Shown here: positions 13,276-33,514 of the stretch, piece after piece
How the letters are laid out: each line of letters starts with the position of its first letter
How positions within the stretch are numbered: position 1 is the stretch's first letter
NCBI RefSeq assembly: GCF_037976825.1
Contig: NZ_CP150269.1
Location: forward strand, 5,655,501-5,719,500
Length of the DNA stretch: 64,000 nt
Origin: Paenibacillus sp. FSL K6-1330
GTDB taxonomy: Bacteria > Bacillota > Bacilli > Paenibacillales > Paenibacillaceae
Direction: 5' to 3'
Notes under the pieces: model-generated
The model's input: the letters and a program-made list of their open reading frames with translations, nothing else
Told to the model about the DNA's origin: nothing
The model's database searches: none
Translations under genes and position numbers: made by a program

Positions 13276-13554
13276 TTACTCGCTCACGCCACCATAACCT
13301 GTTTTCGGTAATGCTTTTGGCTTAATGCTCTTGGTGTGCACTTTATGTGCTTTGCTTTTAGCTCGCATTTTGTGCTCTTTTGCTTTGTGTTCTTTCGTTT
13401 TGTGTTCTTTCGCATGCAGTTTGTGTTCTTTAGCTTGGTGTTCTTTAACATGCATTTTGTGCTGATGACTTTCCACTGGTGCTGCAGATGCGGTGATTGC
13501 CGAAGCTGAAAGGAACAAACAAGTTGACAAGGCAAAAATTGCTGTTTTTTTCAT
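13276..13554 (-). CDS. Small secreted His/Lys-rich repeat protein ending in LPKTG
   Basis: 92 residues. Sec signal peptide (residues 1-24, ending ASA), then about 45 residues made of KEHK / KEHKxKA-type repeats very rich in Lys and His, then a C-terminus reading ALPKTG followed by only six more residues (YGGVSE) and a stop. The LPKTG motif fits a sortase site, but the hydrophobic helix and positive tail of a normal sorting signal are absent. AAAGGAGG lies before the ATG. The cationic His-rich repeats might bind metal or anionic wall polymers; that is inference. Confidence 0.85.
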   Translation of the reverse strand: MKKTAIFALSTCLFLSASAITASAAPVESHQHKMHVKEHQAKEHKLHAKEHKTKEHKAKEHKMRAKSKAHKVHTKSIKPKALPKTGYGGVSE

Positions 13555-29516: not shown

Positions 29517-30410
29517 ATGAGCTTGTTAAAGGAAAAAATATTGCAATCGGCCATTCGTTTTTTTGCTGAAAAAGGATACCAGGCTACGTCGATTCAAGAT
29601 ATCGCGGATGATTGCAGCATTGCAAAAGGCTCAATCTATAAATTCTATGGCTCCAAAGAAGAACTGTATATCAGTATTCTGCATAAACGCCAGCAAGATA
29701 TGATTGATGCTGTCGAGAGAATCCGCAAAAGAGAATTGCCCAAAAGGGAAACATTTCTTGAGGAGATCGCTTACCAGTTCGATTTTTTCATCGAGCATGG
29801 TTATTATATTTCGCGTGATCACAACGAGCTTCCACCGGCGAACAGTGATAAAATCGGCTCCGTCATTCATCAGCTCCAATTAAATATGTTCCGGTATTAC
29901 CAAGATATCTTGATCCGTCATTATGGGGATGCGATATCCGAATGGAAATGGGATGCCACAGCCATATTTAATGGATTGATCCGAGAGTATACCTTTCATG
30001 TATTGTTTGGGTTCAAACCACTGGTTCAAAAGGAATTAACCGTTTTTATTGCTGAACGAATGGATGGTCTCGTAGAGGGATTAGCACAACGTCCTCCCCG
30101 TCCCCTGCTCACCGATGAACTCATGAAGGAATATTCCATGATTAATTTAGAAGCACTTACTTATACACAAGAGATACGAAGAACCGCATTGATGGATATG
30201 ATCGAGTCCATAATCCCGGATCTGTCAATTACGAACTCCAGAAAAAAAGATTTGTCTGATGTAGCGGCAATGCTGCGGGAAGAATTCATCAAAGAACAAC
30301 CAAGGAGCTTCCTAATCCAAGCGCTGCTGCGGGATCTATCCTCAGAGACTGAGCTTGGCTTTTACACCAGTCAGCTGCAGCAATTAATTCGGGACAACAA
30401 AATAAATTAG
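29517..30410 (+). CDS. TetR-family regulator of the efflux operon
   Basis: 297 residues, longer than usual. The N-terminal HTH is canonical (IRFFAEKGYQATSIQDIADD, then AKGSIYKFYGSKEELY). The C-terminal ligand-binding part is about 100 residues longer than in typical TetR proteins and shows no known motif. It lies 195 bases after the hydrolase gene on the same strand; control of the DHA2 operon is inferred from position only. Confidence 0.9.
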   Translation: MSLLKEKILQSAIRFFAEKGYQATSIQDIADDCSIAKGSIYKFYGSKEELYISILHKRQQDMIDAVERIRKRELPKRETFLEEIAYQFDFFIEHGYYISRDHNELPPANSDKIGSVIHQLQLNMFRYYQDILIRHYGDAISEWKWDATAIFNGLIREYTFHVLFGFKPLVQKELTVFIAERMDGLVEGLAQRPPRPLLTDELMKEYSMINLEALTYTQEIRRTALMDMIESIIPDLSITNSRKKDLSDVAAMLREEFIKEQPRSFLIQALLRDLSSETELGFYTSQLQQLIRDNKIN

Positions 30411-30594: not shown

Positions 30595-30993
30595 GTCGAC
30601 GTTGGAATGGGGCGCCGATCTCGAATATGCGCACCGGCGACGTTCGAATGGAGAACCGATCTCGAATATACGCACCGTCGACGTTCGAATGGAGAACCGA
30701 TCTCGAATATACGCACCGTCGACATTCGAATGGAGAACCGATCTCGATATGCGCACCGTCGACGTTCGAATGGGGCCGATCTCGAATATACGCACCGTCG
30801 ACGTTCGGAGAACCGATCTCGAATATACGCACCGTCGACGTCGAATGGAGAACCGATCTCGAATATACGCACCGTCGACGTTCGAATGGGGCCGATCTCG
30901 AATATGCGCACCGGCGACGTTGGAATGGAGAACCGAACTCGAATATACGCACCCGTCGACGTTGGAATGGGGCCGATCTCGAATACGCGCACC
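30595..30993. repeat. Tandem array 1: ten units of 37-42 bp
   Basis: Each unit reads GTCGACGTTCGAATGG, then either AGAACC or GGCC, then GATCTCGAATATACGCACC, with point changes. Unit starts: 30595, 30636, 30677, 30718, 30758, 30797, 30834, 30874, 30913, 30955. Units are joined head to tail without spacers, so it is not a CRISPR array. The length differences (37, 39, 40, 41, 42) shift all reading frames, which argues that the open frames across it are not genes. Confidence 0.95.
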
Positions 30994-31072
30994 GTCACGT
31001 CTGCATCGTGTGGTAACAGACATTGGACAGATCGAGCGTTCGTCTACCTGATTCACAGGCCTCTGAAGTTGT

Positions 31073-31762
31073 TTACAAAAGATCGGGACTTTGAATCGAT
31101 CCGATGTACTCGTATCGATATATCTTGCCAGCAGTACCTGTCGGTATTGCTCGGAACTTGCCTTGTTCCACCAATTTACGGCAATACTTGATGACCGTTT
31201 GCTTGTGAATCTCCAGTTCTTTCGCTGCTTGCGGAGGGCAAATGATACGATCATGCCGGATGGCCAGACGCATCAGTTGACGCTCGATTTTTCCGAATCT
31301 TCGATAGACGGTTCCGCTCTCATCTTGGATTGCCGCAAGATAAGGGGCTAAAATGCTCCGTACCATGGCCAGCACGAACGATGGATTTTCTTTCATCTCA
31401 TCCAATGAAATGGAGATTACGTAACATTCTTGCGATTGCAGGAACAACCCTCGATTTAAATCCAATCGATATTTCGAACGATCTTTGCCATGCGAACCAT
31501 AATCCATGATTTCAAATACGAACCGGAGCCCACCCACGATCCAAATAAAGTCCACAAAATATGACCGTCCTCTCCAGTCCTTCACCTCATATTCCGGATG
31601 CAAACCCGTAAAATGTCCCATGAGCGTCCACCATATTTTTTCTGCAAACATGTGATTACCGTACCCATGCCCCCTTCTCAGTGCATCTTTCCGCTCCCCG
31701 CGGCGGTTCGACAAGTGTTTCTTTATCCATTTTTCATGTTCGATTTCAAAACTCAATTCCAT
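31073..31762 (-). CDS. PD-(D/E)XK-like domain fused to a winged helix (uncharacterised)
   Basis: 229 residues. The central part (about 55-122) has the DUF559/Vsr-like layout of restriction-endonuclease folds: VDFIW (Asp71), FVFEIMDYGSH (Glu84), then DRSKYRLDLNRGLFLQ. In most such enzymes the Glu is followed by x-Lys; here position 86 is Met. The C-terminus (about 155-218) looks like a winged helix, with ICPPQAAKELEIHKQTVIKYC as its HTH. The gene has its own promoter, leader terminator and G-rich ribosome site. It stands alone between two tandem arrays. I recall relatives in other Paenibacillus genomes, but know of no assigned function. Confidence 0.75.
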   Translation of the reverse strand: MELSFEIEHEKWIKKHLSNRRGERKDALRRGHGYGNHMFAEKIWWTLMGHFTGLHPEYEVKDWRGRSYFVDFIWIVGGLRFVFEIMDYGSHGKDRSKYRLDLNRGLFLQSQECYVISISLDEMKENPSFVLAMVRSILAPYLAAIQDESGTVYRRFGKIERQLMRLAIRHDRIICPPQAAKELEIHKQTVIKYCRKLVEQGKFRAIPTGTAGKIYRYEYIGSIQSPDLL

Positions 31763-31786
31763 GCCCCTCTCTAAGGCAGAACAAAA

Positions 31787-31829
31787 ACGCCCCGACTTCG
31801 CTTCCGCTCTGGAAGAAAGTACGGGGCGT
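31787..31829 (-). terminator. Intrinsic terminator in the leader of the nuclease-like gene
   Basis: On the minus strand, ACGCCCCG and CGGGGCGT arms, loop of 27 bases, followed directly by TTTTT. It lies between the predicted promoter (31844-31887) and the start codon at 31762, so it acts either as an attenuator of the gene or as a stop for transcripts coming out of array 2. Confidence 0.8.
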
Positions 31830-31843
31830 GCTTCGCCGCGCTG

Positions 31844-31887
31844 ATTATAATTATGTATATCTTAACTAAATCGCTCCCAGGTTGCAA
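31844..31887 (-). promoter_or_regulatory. Predicted promoter of the nuclease-like gene
   Basis: Minus strand: TTGCAA (31882-31887), 17-base spacer, TAAGAT (31859-31864); a second perfect TATAAT lies at 31844-31849 without a good -35. Either would start transcription upstream of the leader terminator. Confidence 0.55.
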
Positions 31888-31922
31888 GGAAATGAGCCAA
31901 ACACGCCATCATTGAATTTTGG

Positions 31923-32453
31923 ACGATTTTTCGTGCAAGTTTCCTTCGGAGATCGCTTCACGCTGGTTTTTTGAACGATTTTTCGTGCAAATTTCCTACT
32001 AGTATCGCTTCATGCTCGTTTTTAGATGATTTTTCGTACAAAATTCCTTCCAGGATCGCTTCACTCTCGTTGTTGAACGATTTTTCGTGCAATTTCCCTT
32101 CTAGAATCGCTTCACTCTCGTTTTTGTACGATTTTTCGTACAAAATTCCTTCTAGGATCGCTCCATAATCGTTTTCGAACGATTTTTCGTACAAGTTTCC
32201 TACTAGGAATCGCTCCACGCTCATTTTTGTACGATTTTTCGTTCAAAACTTCTTCCAGGATCCCTTCACGCTCATTTTTGTACGATTTTTCGTACAAAAT
32301 TCCTTCCAGGATCGCTTCATGCTCATTTTTATACGATTTTTCGTACAAATTTCTGAAATTGTATCCTCGGGTATTCGTTTTTGTACGTTTTTTCGTACAA
32401 CTCTCTTACAACAAATGACTGTGTACATGCTTTTGTACGATTTTTCATACAAA
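31923..32453. repeat. Tandem array 2: eleven units of 51-52 bp with hairpin cores
   Basis: Core TTGTACGATTTTTCGTACAA in the best copies: 8-base perfect arms around TTTT. Between cores: AATTCCTTCCAGGATCGCTT and then CACTCTCGTTTT, variable. Cores (ACGATTTTTCGT) start at 31923, 31975, 32026, 32077, 32128, 32179, 32231, 32282, 32333, 32385 and 32437. The spacing is five helical turns. Because it is 51 or 52, frames stay open over several units, giving spurious repeat peptides (YEKSYKNE) with no ribosome site. The right-hand units are more degenerate. Confidence 0.95.
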
Positions 32454-32623: not shown

Positions 32624-33514
32624 TTATATTTTCGCCACCTTGCTGCCTTTCACCTTAACGTTCACGAGCAGAATACTGGCTACAATCATGACCAGACCTG
32701 CAATCAGATTGATTGTCACCGACTCCCCAAGGAACAGCACGCTGCACAGCAGGGCAATCAGCGGAATCAGAAACGTGAATGATCCCACCTTGCTCGCTTC
32801 ACCAGAACTAACCAGTTTGAAGAACGCAAGCCATCCCAGTGCAATGACAAACACTGAAATAAACAGCATATCCAATATAAATGGAAGCACCCACTGCACG
32901 TCAACCCAGCTCTCTGTAGCGGTACCCGTCAATGTCAGTACAACCCCACCAATCAAAATTGGGATGGCAGTCATCCAGATCCCGTCGACCTTCGCAGAAG
33001 TCCTCTTCATGTATACCGTTCCGATCGCCCAGCTTATCGCACTGAACAACCCGAGCACAACCCCTTCGGGTGATACCATGCCTGTCATGCCGCCAATACT
33101 GATGGTAGCGACGCCTGCAAAACCGAGGACTAATCCAGCAATTTTCAATCCATACATCGACTCGCCCAACCACAACCAGGCCCCGATTCCGAGCAGCACG
33201 GGCTGTAGGAACACGATGGAGGAAAATAACCCTGCCGGTACTTCCGTCAATCCCATGGTCTGAAAGCCATAGAAGAAAATAATGTTGAGCACTGCAGAGA
33301 TGACATAGATATGCCAGGTTTCCCGGAGCCGTAGCGTTTTGTACCGTGGAAAAGCATATAGTCCAAGCACCAAACCTCCAATTAATAGACGCATGCCTGC
33401 AAATAAAAGCGGTGGTGTGTAATTTAATGCGTATTTGGTCAGGGGCCAGTTCACTCCCCACATGAGTACCAGAAAAGCTAGGACCCAGCCTGCTTTTGAA
33501 CGTGATAAAGCCAT
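32624..33514 (-). CDS. EamA/DMT-family transporter
   Basis: 296 residues, ten predicted helices in two EamA repeats (first starting WVLAFLVLMWGVNWPLTKYAL, second around AISWAIGTVYMKR). These carry amino acids, nucleosides or small metabolites across the membrane. Divergent from a LysR gene 190 bases away, which probably controls it. Confidence 0.9.
   Translation of the reverse strand: MALSRSKAGWVLAFLVLMWGVNWPLTKYALNYTPPLLFAGMRLLIGGLVLGLYAFPRYKTLRLRETWHIYVISAVLNIIFFYGFQTMGLTEVPAGLFSSIVFLQPVLLGIGAWLWLGESMYGLKIAGLVLGFAGVATISIGGMTGMVSPEGVVLGLFSAISWAIGTVYMKRTSAKVDGIWMTAIPILIGGVVLTLTGTATESWVDVQWVLPFILDMLFISVFVIALGWLAFFKLVSSGEASKVGSFTFLIPLIALLCSVLFLGESVTINLIAGLVMIVASILLVNVKVKGSKVAKI

Follow-up and report, generated by a model that had tools for sequence, protein, structure and literature searches.

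Among the described bacterial repeat systems, the closest to the one reported here are the repetitive extragenic palindromic (REP) sequences with their REP-associated tyrosine transposases (RAYTs), including the bacterial interspersed mosaic elements (BIMEs) and the REP doublets forming hairpins (REPINs). Passages of PMC2817692 describe for them a gene flanked by palindromes, co-evolution of motif and protein, a repeat abundance that tracks the gene, and arrays in intergenic positions. The stretch of DNA analysed here (the window) comprises 64,000 nucleotides of Paenibacillus sp. FSL K6-1330 (contig NZ_CP150269.1, positions 5,655,501 to 5,719,500) and holds a gene for a protein of 229 amino acids that lies between two tandem arrays, one of which (array 2) consists of palindromes repeated at intervals of 51 or 52 bp. 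We suggest that this gene and array 2 are a cognate pair in a protein-repeat family of Paenibacillus, Cohnella and relatives, one that spreads largely selfishly in a manner similar to RAYT-REP but is unrelated to it, a reading to which we give an even chance. The features of the locus are the following.

31073..31762, minus strand: protein gene (open reading frame (ORF), 229 amino acids), putative DUF559/Vsr-like N-terminal part and MarR-type winged helix
31917..32453, plus strand: array 2, eleven palindromes TTTGTACGA-N4-TCGTACAAA at 51/52-bp intervals (Tandem Repeats Finder (TRF) and palindrome scan)
30595..31000, no strand assigned: array 1, ten units of 37-41 bp (TRF, period 41, 10.2 copies)
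31766..31839, minus strand: conserved leader (fold, motif and stem covariation)
29517..30410, plus strand: TetR-family regulator, a neighbour that only flanks the locus (Pfam PF00440)
32624..33514, minus strand: EamA-family transporter, likewise only flanking (Pfam PF00892)

That a single gene lies between two unrelated arrays had been proposed in an initial annotation made from the letters of the window, and this is borne out: array 1 lies 72 bp from the gene and array 2 about 155 bp, where 80 and 160 had been given, the arrays have no evident common sequence, and the counts of about ten and eleven units hold. By TRF alone array 2 extends over 31917-32353 (period 51, 8.5 copies); the palindrome scan lengthens it to eleven units from 31918 to 32453, with successive intervals of 52, 51, 51, 51, 51, 52, 51, 51, 52 and 52 bp. 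The annotation had treated both arrays alike. Both are real, but they differ in kind, and only array 2 is constrained in phase: neighbouring units of array 1 are 84-98% identical yet vary in length between 37 and 41 bp, indels being tolerated, whereas neighbouring spacers of array 2 are just 40-86% identical and the palindromes still stand 51 or 52 bp apart. Even the last two intervals measure 52 bp each, though their spacers are 40 and 47% identical to the preceding one. The suggestion that unit lengths follow helical turns fits array 2, which shows a spacing of about five turns and keeps its phase while the spacers diverge. As a second target of the protein, array 1 is not supported: its 41-bp unit occurs at no other locus among 60 genomes, it is without phase constraint, and no inverted repeat was reported in it. 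A link may nevertheless exist, since one close homologue (L079) has an unrelated 41-bp array of 11.4 copies at the corresponding 3' position, 48 bp past its gene.

Homologues of the protein are present in 46 of the 60 genomes, the source genome included, with up to ten in each, and the closest homologue outside the source genome among these 46 (84%) lies in another family. A scan of named genomes confirmed 395 stretches, the best 80 of which were kept as 79 loci, with titles naming Paenibacillus, Cohnella, Thermobacillus, one Bacillus and one Paenibacillaceae bacterium. The annotation had proposed asking whether homologues are flanked by arrays beyond chance, and for the 51/52-bp type the answer is strongly positive: TRF found arrays with this spacing, or a multiple of it, no more than 1.5 kb from the gene at 39 of the 79 loci (226,628 bp searched) versus 3 of the 79 farther away (the remaining 931,117 bp). 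Broken down by period, 51 occurs 23 times near the gene and once far from it, and 52 occurs 17 times near and three times far; every other period is seen at most four times near. Counted as near are the 51-bp arrays of two loci that lie unusually far from the gene, 1292 bp upstream (L090) and 1171 bp downstream (L123). De novo detection of imperfect palindromes near the gene, made without TRF, yielded at least six pairs only at distances of 51, 52, 102-104, 153, 155, 156, 204, 208 and 255 bp. By either test an array is present at 66 of 109 loci, namely the 79 named and 30 others, two sets with some overlap, as the tree contains six pairs of identical proteins. The most distant clade has an array at just one of its 12 loci, the other 11 having none. 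No array of period 50-53 was detected in 15 evenly placed 20-kb stretches of the source genome by TRF, a control of less than full sensitivity, given that TRF also missed a diverged phased array (L058). The connection between protein and repeats that had been drawn from the layout of the window is thereby supported for the phased 51/52-bp arrays, but not for array 1.

The sequence of the palindrome differs between protein clades. The half-sites TTTGTACGA, TTCTATATGA, ATGTATTCGA, AACAACGGCA and ATCAGAGGTA, each with its mirror arm, belong to different clades, and the dyad symmetry survives complete sequence change between them. Palindrome distance correlates with protein distance (Spearman 0.81, none of 2000 permutations as high; n = 49, and also n = 31 after thinning); GC-rich palindrome chains at L019, L022, L023 and L084 were excluded from the thinned correlation and given no palindrome label on the tree, while the 49-locus set keeps L019, L022 and L084. 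Sites of the form AACAACGGCA-4-TGCCGTTGTT number 237 in G015, 452 in G027, 202 in G028 (P. riograndensis), 425 in G031 (P. graminis) and 247 in G034, compared with 0-10 in nine other genomes. Four of the five rich genomes have a protein of the corresponding clade on the tree (L010, L011, L012, L014), and in the fifth, P. riograndensis, a AACAACGGCA palindrome lies 46 bp after the gene copy at 2236409. A second paralogue in P. graminis has its own AGAGGTA-type palindrome alongside, with a similar half-site in two further arrays elsewhere; at least two paralogues with different palindromes occur together in this genome, and likewise in P. riograndensis.

Beyond the array beside the gene, the source genome contains four arrays in trans, all of them intergenic, 75-255 bp after the 3' ends of genes and in two cases between convergent genes. 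Together the five arrays hold 47 palindromes, two of which are poor (six mismatches); all 42 intervals measure 50-52 bp, mean arm identity is 0.87-0.91, and the spacers of different arrays share 17-38% in nine of ten comparisons. Dyad and phase are thus retained while the spacers diverge, and the dyad and the five-turn phase are therefore the selected features. Across the 60 genomes, the strict form of the window palindrome (two mismatches) occurs in eight; with three mismatches allowed, six of these eight have 46 (source genome), 100 (G047), 22 (G021), 31 (G039), 41 (G040) and 12 (G042) sites, as compared with 0-4 in a reversed control; close homologues of the window protein are confined, among these six, to the source genome and G047. 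Palindrome and clade are thus more loosely tied for this motif, either by gene loss or by distant members reading a similar site. A further observation concerns G040, in which many short runs of two to four window-type palindromes follow each other at 51/52-bp steps (for example C9:41424-41601, C11:39323-39396, C31:48062-48134).

The protein appears to combine a weak DUF559/Vsr-like domain, a putative nuclease fold, with a winged helix. The annotation had proposed a PD-(D/E)XK-like domain followed by a winged helix, and the second part agrees with profile matches: against the PDB, the family profile matches mostly MarR-like winged helices (best AdcR, 3tgn, residues 158-216, E 0.0015), several winged-helix families in Pfam match some of 26 aligned homologues (HTH_24 in 3 of 26, best E 4.1e-5), and the window protein alone gives weak helix-turn-helix (HTH) matches only, in Pfam (E 0.034 to 0.22) and in NCBIfam. 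The nuclease fold is weakly supported, with DUF559 (PF04480) matching 8 of the 26 homologues in Pfam (best E 2.1e-5), the window protein excluded. Some relatives are labelled DUF559 or very-short-patch-repair endonuclease by their source records, and 1402 database proteins fall within the family at E up to 0.001. Across 223 homologues D62, D71, E84, H91, R95 and R104 are invariant, whereas position 86 carries K in 160 of them and M in the other 63, among these the window protein. One change suffices to explain this K/M difference on a fast tree of 103 loci, in which the 63-member M clade holds the window protein. Where DUF559 has an E-x-D motif, the family here has E-x-K or E-x-M. Six loci (L079, L086, L111, L134, L138, L145) with a short or interrupted simple translation were left out of the protein alignment. 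A Pfam scan of the 26 homologues revealed no Y1 (IS200/IS605-like) transposase, giving DUF559, HTH and a few weak other matches instead, and for a TnsA-like reading, which the domain order might suggest, no TnsA profile is present among the Pfam matches of the window proteins and the 26 homologues, although no search was aimed at TnsA.

The gene is preceded by a conserved leader that looks like an attenuator. It contains a 4-bp stem, GGCG-AAGCA-CGCC, the 3' arm of which also opens an intrinsic-terminator-like hairpin with a T run, directly before the ribosome-binding site; it is because this arm doubles as the start of the terminator stem that the layout resembles an attenuator. The fold of 31763-31880 has a z of -3.11, a GRCRAAGNAYGYC-type motif lies within 170 bases before the gene at 105 of 108 loci, and a hairpin followed by a T run is found just before the start at 92 of 108 loci versus 111 of 1082 other ATG frames. 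Covariation was tested in 45 of the 105 leaders, which were found by a pattern restricting the stem letters, with only double changes counting as evidence: the stem is paired in 180 of 180 cells, and 28 of its cells are double-changed, more than in any of 500 shuffles (mean 9.5). The same cannot be said for the count of stem pairs with double changes (two), which some shuffles equal or surpass. When an RNA model was searched in ten genomes, with 150 candidates scored per genome, 10 of the 11 matches with E below 1e-8 lay directly before a gene copy, the exception (G047:C41) having no gene beside it. The leader is found also on distant homologues without arrays, and has no Rfam match at the gathering threshold or at E up to 1. 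The stem is evident from these comparisons, and a regulatory role is suggested by the layout, making the leader a candidate for a new class of regulatory RNA.

Because the palindromes are slightly asymmetric, the arrays have a direction, which was compared with GC skew, the usual proxy for replication direction. The arrays fetched were among the matches listed for each genome, about 100 at most, and are a part of all arrays. In P. graminis the purine-rich loop lies on the plus strand in 12 of 12 arrays at positive skew and on the minus strand in 9 of 9 at negative skew (21/21 in total). The 16 arrays of P. riograndensis are likewise oriented by skew (14 and 2), at least five of them standing at the same place as arrays of P. 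graminis and hence being non-independent. For a different motif, in G001 and G007, the orientation follows skew in 12 of 12 arrays, one of those in G001 having a weaker reading on the other strand as well (6 sites versus 22). The skew of G007 changes at two places, one at 0.42-0.70 Mb and the other at 4.0-4.7 Mb, and its arrays track skew, not coordinate. Pooled over the two motif families, 49 of 49 fetched arrays, among the matches listed, are oriented by GC skew. Four arrays in P. graminis (560068, 746602, 3743042, 6290386) keep the rule with both nearest crudely called ORFs on the opposite strand, two of the four also sitting within a longer called frame, and the 27-nt spacers of this genome are related between arrays in the same orientation. 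Among the matches listed for G034, most sites at 0.65-0.84 Mb have the opposite orientation to those at 2.19-4.02 Mb, and a single unit within the 654-kb array runs the other way. Polarity is thin in the window's own family and genome, where three trans arrays (L057, L058 and L060) agree with skew, L057 and L058 being related arrays.

The arrays differ strongly in copy number between two species, and the system has likely been lost in places. At matching positions, arrays of P. graminis and P. riograndensis have 17 versus 3, 10 versus 4, 17 versus 2, 10 versus 4 and 5 versus 2 units, and a further place, where one flank only could be aligned, has 9 versus 1. The array at position 1050707 of P. 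graminis is absent from G015, G034 and G027; gain and loss are indistinguishable there because the flanks differ too. The family gene was not found in 14 of the 60 genomes, one of which (G006) has a broken copy, and such broken copies follow the leader in both G006 and G040 (L206; L202:5072-5760). In G021, where the gene was not detected in the genome, a leader-like element lies 9 bp from four palindromes at 51-52 bp (L196:7114-7370), probably the relic of a lost copy. Repeats in genomes that have no such gene, which the annotation had named as evidence against the link, therefore do occur in G021, but the palindromes there adjoin the leader relic.

Taken together, these observations suggest a mechanism in which dimers of the winged-helix protein would bind the palindromes, adjacent dimers doing so cooperatively along a single face of the double helix. 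Binding to one face is proposed because the sites stand five helical turns apart and indels are purged; cooperative binding to the phased palindromes is likely. Either the nuclease-like domain or the phased binding might then promote the copying of array units at the replication fork from one template strand, which would fix the direction of the arrays and let them multiply largely selfishly, in the way REPs do by means of RAYT transposases, though here through an unrelated protein. Such replication-coupled spreading is unproven; for IS200/IS605 elements, passages of PMC6006769 describe strand-specific copying at forks with the lagging-strand template. The conserved leader, as an attenuator, would hold the protein's own level. 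A selfish reading is favoured by the coexistence in one genome of paralogues that differ in motif, by the loss of the gene and by the marked differences in copy number.

Several observations weigh against this reading and should be kept in mind. No array was found by either test at 43 of the 109 loci, and the window palindrome occurs also in G021, where no gene was found, and in G039, G040 and G042, for which distant homologues only are known. Two genomes low in AACAACGGCA sites are not free of phased palindromes: six of the ten sites of G009 are related palindromes spaced 51 bp apart, and with five mismatches allowed, nine palindromes at this spacing appear in G022. Gene and array linked in cis would co-diverge by descent, so that the correlation between palindrome and protein is weaker evidence than the trans arrays, which weigh more because linkage alone could yield part of it. 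The window protein has no DUF559 match in Pfam up to E 0.01. Cleavage through position 86, a possible catalytic residue (E-x-K), is disfavoured because Met stands there in the whole 63-member clade, 39 members of which have arrays; the retention of arrays by this clade would argue against such an activity. Within the source genome, the trans array L059 is ambiguous, with 6 palindromes matching best on the minus strand and 5 on the plus, and the three other trans arrays point the opposite way to the cis array. Array places common to two species are stable, not freely mobile, and no clean insertion junction was seen at position 1050707 of P. graminis, one place compared with three array-free relatives.

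The main alternative is a chromosome-organising system of the host, in which the protein would coat the phased, replication-oriented arrays and mark the direction or topology of the chromosome, which might serve the control of forks, segregation or condensation, with the arrays kept by host selection. We consider it unlikely, although much of the above would suit it: all 49 fetched arrays among the matches listed agree with skew, even with the offset assembly origin of G007 and in the four P. graminis arrays that run against their nearest ORFs; phase is retained as spacers diverge; array places are common to two species; and the Met-86 clade retains its arrays. However, two or more paralogues with different palindromes in P. 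graminis and in P. riograndensis would be needless for one marking job. Nor does such a system sit easily with the 14 genomes in which the gene was not found (including the broken copy of G006), with the broken copy that G040 holds next to other copies, with the strong copy-number difference between the two species, or with the thin polarity of the source genome, where the cis array is opposite and L059 ambiguous. A broader picture, possible but put forward tentatively, is that a Paenibacillaceae chromosome carries more than one set of phased arrays, each with its own DUF559-winged-helix reader, that mark replication direction along its whole length; the arrays would either be deposited strand-specifically at forks by a new type of replication-coupled repeat replicator or serve the host as a new polarity code.

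An ordinary local regulator, that is, a transcription factor whose arrays serve as operator clusters or insulators for neighbouring genes and its own, seems improbable. The four trans arrays of the source genome lie 75-255 bp after gene 3' ends, two of them between convergent genes, some genomes hold hundreds of sites, and the orientation by skew holds even against the direction of the nearest ORFs; on the other hand, the MarR-type winged helix, the intergenic position of the arrays with one beside the protein's own gene, and an attenuator-like leader suggestive of regulated expression are what such a regulator could have. We find it very improbable that the locus is a module for defence against mobile elements, with a nuclease-like protein held on the arrays as a decoy or store and acting on invading DNA. 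Its patchy, multi-copy distribution and the DUF559/Vsr-like matches of some members would be in keeping with this, yet no PADLOC model matches the window protein up to E 0.01, and the matches of relatives are weak (SoFic in 2 of 26, best E 3.1e-4; PDC-S01 and CARF3 also weak). Least probable of all is passive satellite DNA, born by slippage and near the gene by descent with the protein irrelevant: array 1, with near-identical units that carry indels and occur at this locus only, would fit it, as would the co-divergence of linked sequences without interaction and the related, equally oriented inter-array spacers of P. graminis, which resemble copies of one unit, but the dyad is kept through complete sequence change between clades, the phase is kept after spacer divergence, and out of fourteen genomes only the five with its clade are rich in the AACAACGGCA palindrome.

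Returning to the cognate pair, an unstudied protein family gains a concrete partner in the palindrome arrays visible next to many of its genes, and binding and specificity thereby become directly testable across a wide range of natural variants. A functional polarity would be a new way of marking chromosome direction; if it stems from spreading at the fork, it would represent a second, unrelated invention of the supposed activity of RAYT-REP and a natural record of strand-specific DNA copying.

Two further repeats were seen. A second dispersed element in P. graminis consists of GTGGAAAAAGG sites, often in + + - - order and with 51/52-bp spacing (L158:18228-18412, L160:10900-11084, L161:9184-9317); at least two such sites occur in 14 of 20 fetched stretches of this genome, a count made with no shuffle control, and the element has no Rfam match. 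Among the matches listed for P. riograndensis, its copies are on the plus strand up to 3.9 Mb and on the minus strand from 4.85 Mb. Within the window, TRF also reports a small tandem repeat, TTTGTGTTCTTT, with periods 15 and 36 at 13369-13461.

Other known systems share single features with the family described here. The FtsK-orienting polar and SpoIIIE recognition sequences (KOPS/SRS) and Tus-Ter are oriented relative to replication, like the arrays, but each is a short site standing alone, where the present family has palindromes arrayed every five turns and a cognate gene linked to the array. Clustered regularly interspaced short palindromic repeats (CRISPR) are ruled out, as the spacers are related within arrays and the two neighbours are TetR and EamA genes. 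DUF559 (PF04480)/Vsr-like proteins resemble the family through the profile match in 8 of 26 members, while the family here adds a C-terminal winged helix. In Beggiatoaceae, passages of PMC4679880 describe TAACTGA direct repeats that likewise form many sets per genome with an unproven role, but these are heptamers, mostly upstream of start codons, with no cognate flanking gene mentioned there. The GTAG/CGTC-tagged palindromic repeats, as presented in parts of PMC3733652, are also short, intergenic and present in many copies; they differ in that no dedicated enzyme is reported for the CGTC type and in being mainly dimers, not phased arrays, and the main text of that paper does not mention Paenibacillus. 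Palindromes, tandem repeats and DUF559 are likewise absent from the main text of a P. riograndensis transcriptome paper (PMC5670726) by word search, and the open-access literature, with subscription journals mostly outside the search, yielded no account of a DUF559-winged-helix protein paired with phased arrays. The closest likeness is to RAYT-REP as described in the passages cited above, with which the family shares a gene beside palindromes, intergenic arrays and, to judge from the correlation of palindrome with protein distance, probably co-evolution. Abundance tracks the gene here for one motif family (AACAACGGCA), whereas the window palindrome is found also where homologues are distant or none. 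RAYTs, however, are related to IS200/IS605 transposases, while the family here is DUF559-like with a winged helix; REPs alternate or are inverted, while the units here follow one another in direct orientation at a constant 51/52 bp, flank the gene on one side or on both, and in two families are oriented by GC skew. Enzyme class and repeat orientation thus rule out membership in RAYT-REP.

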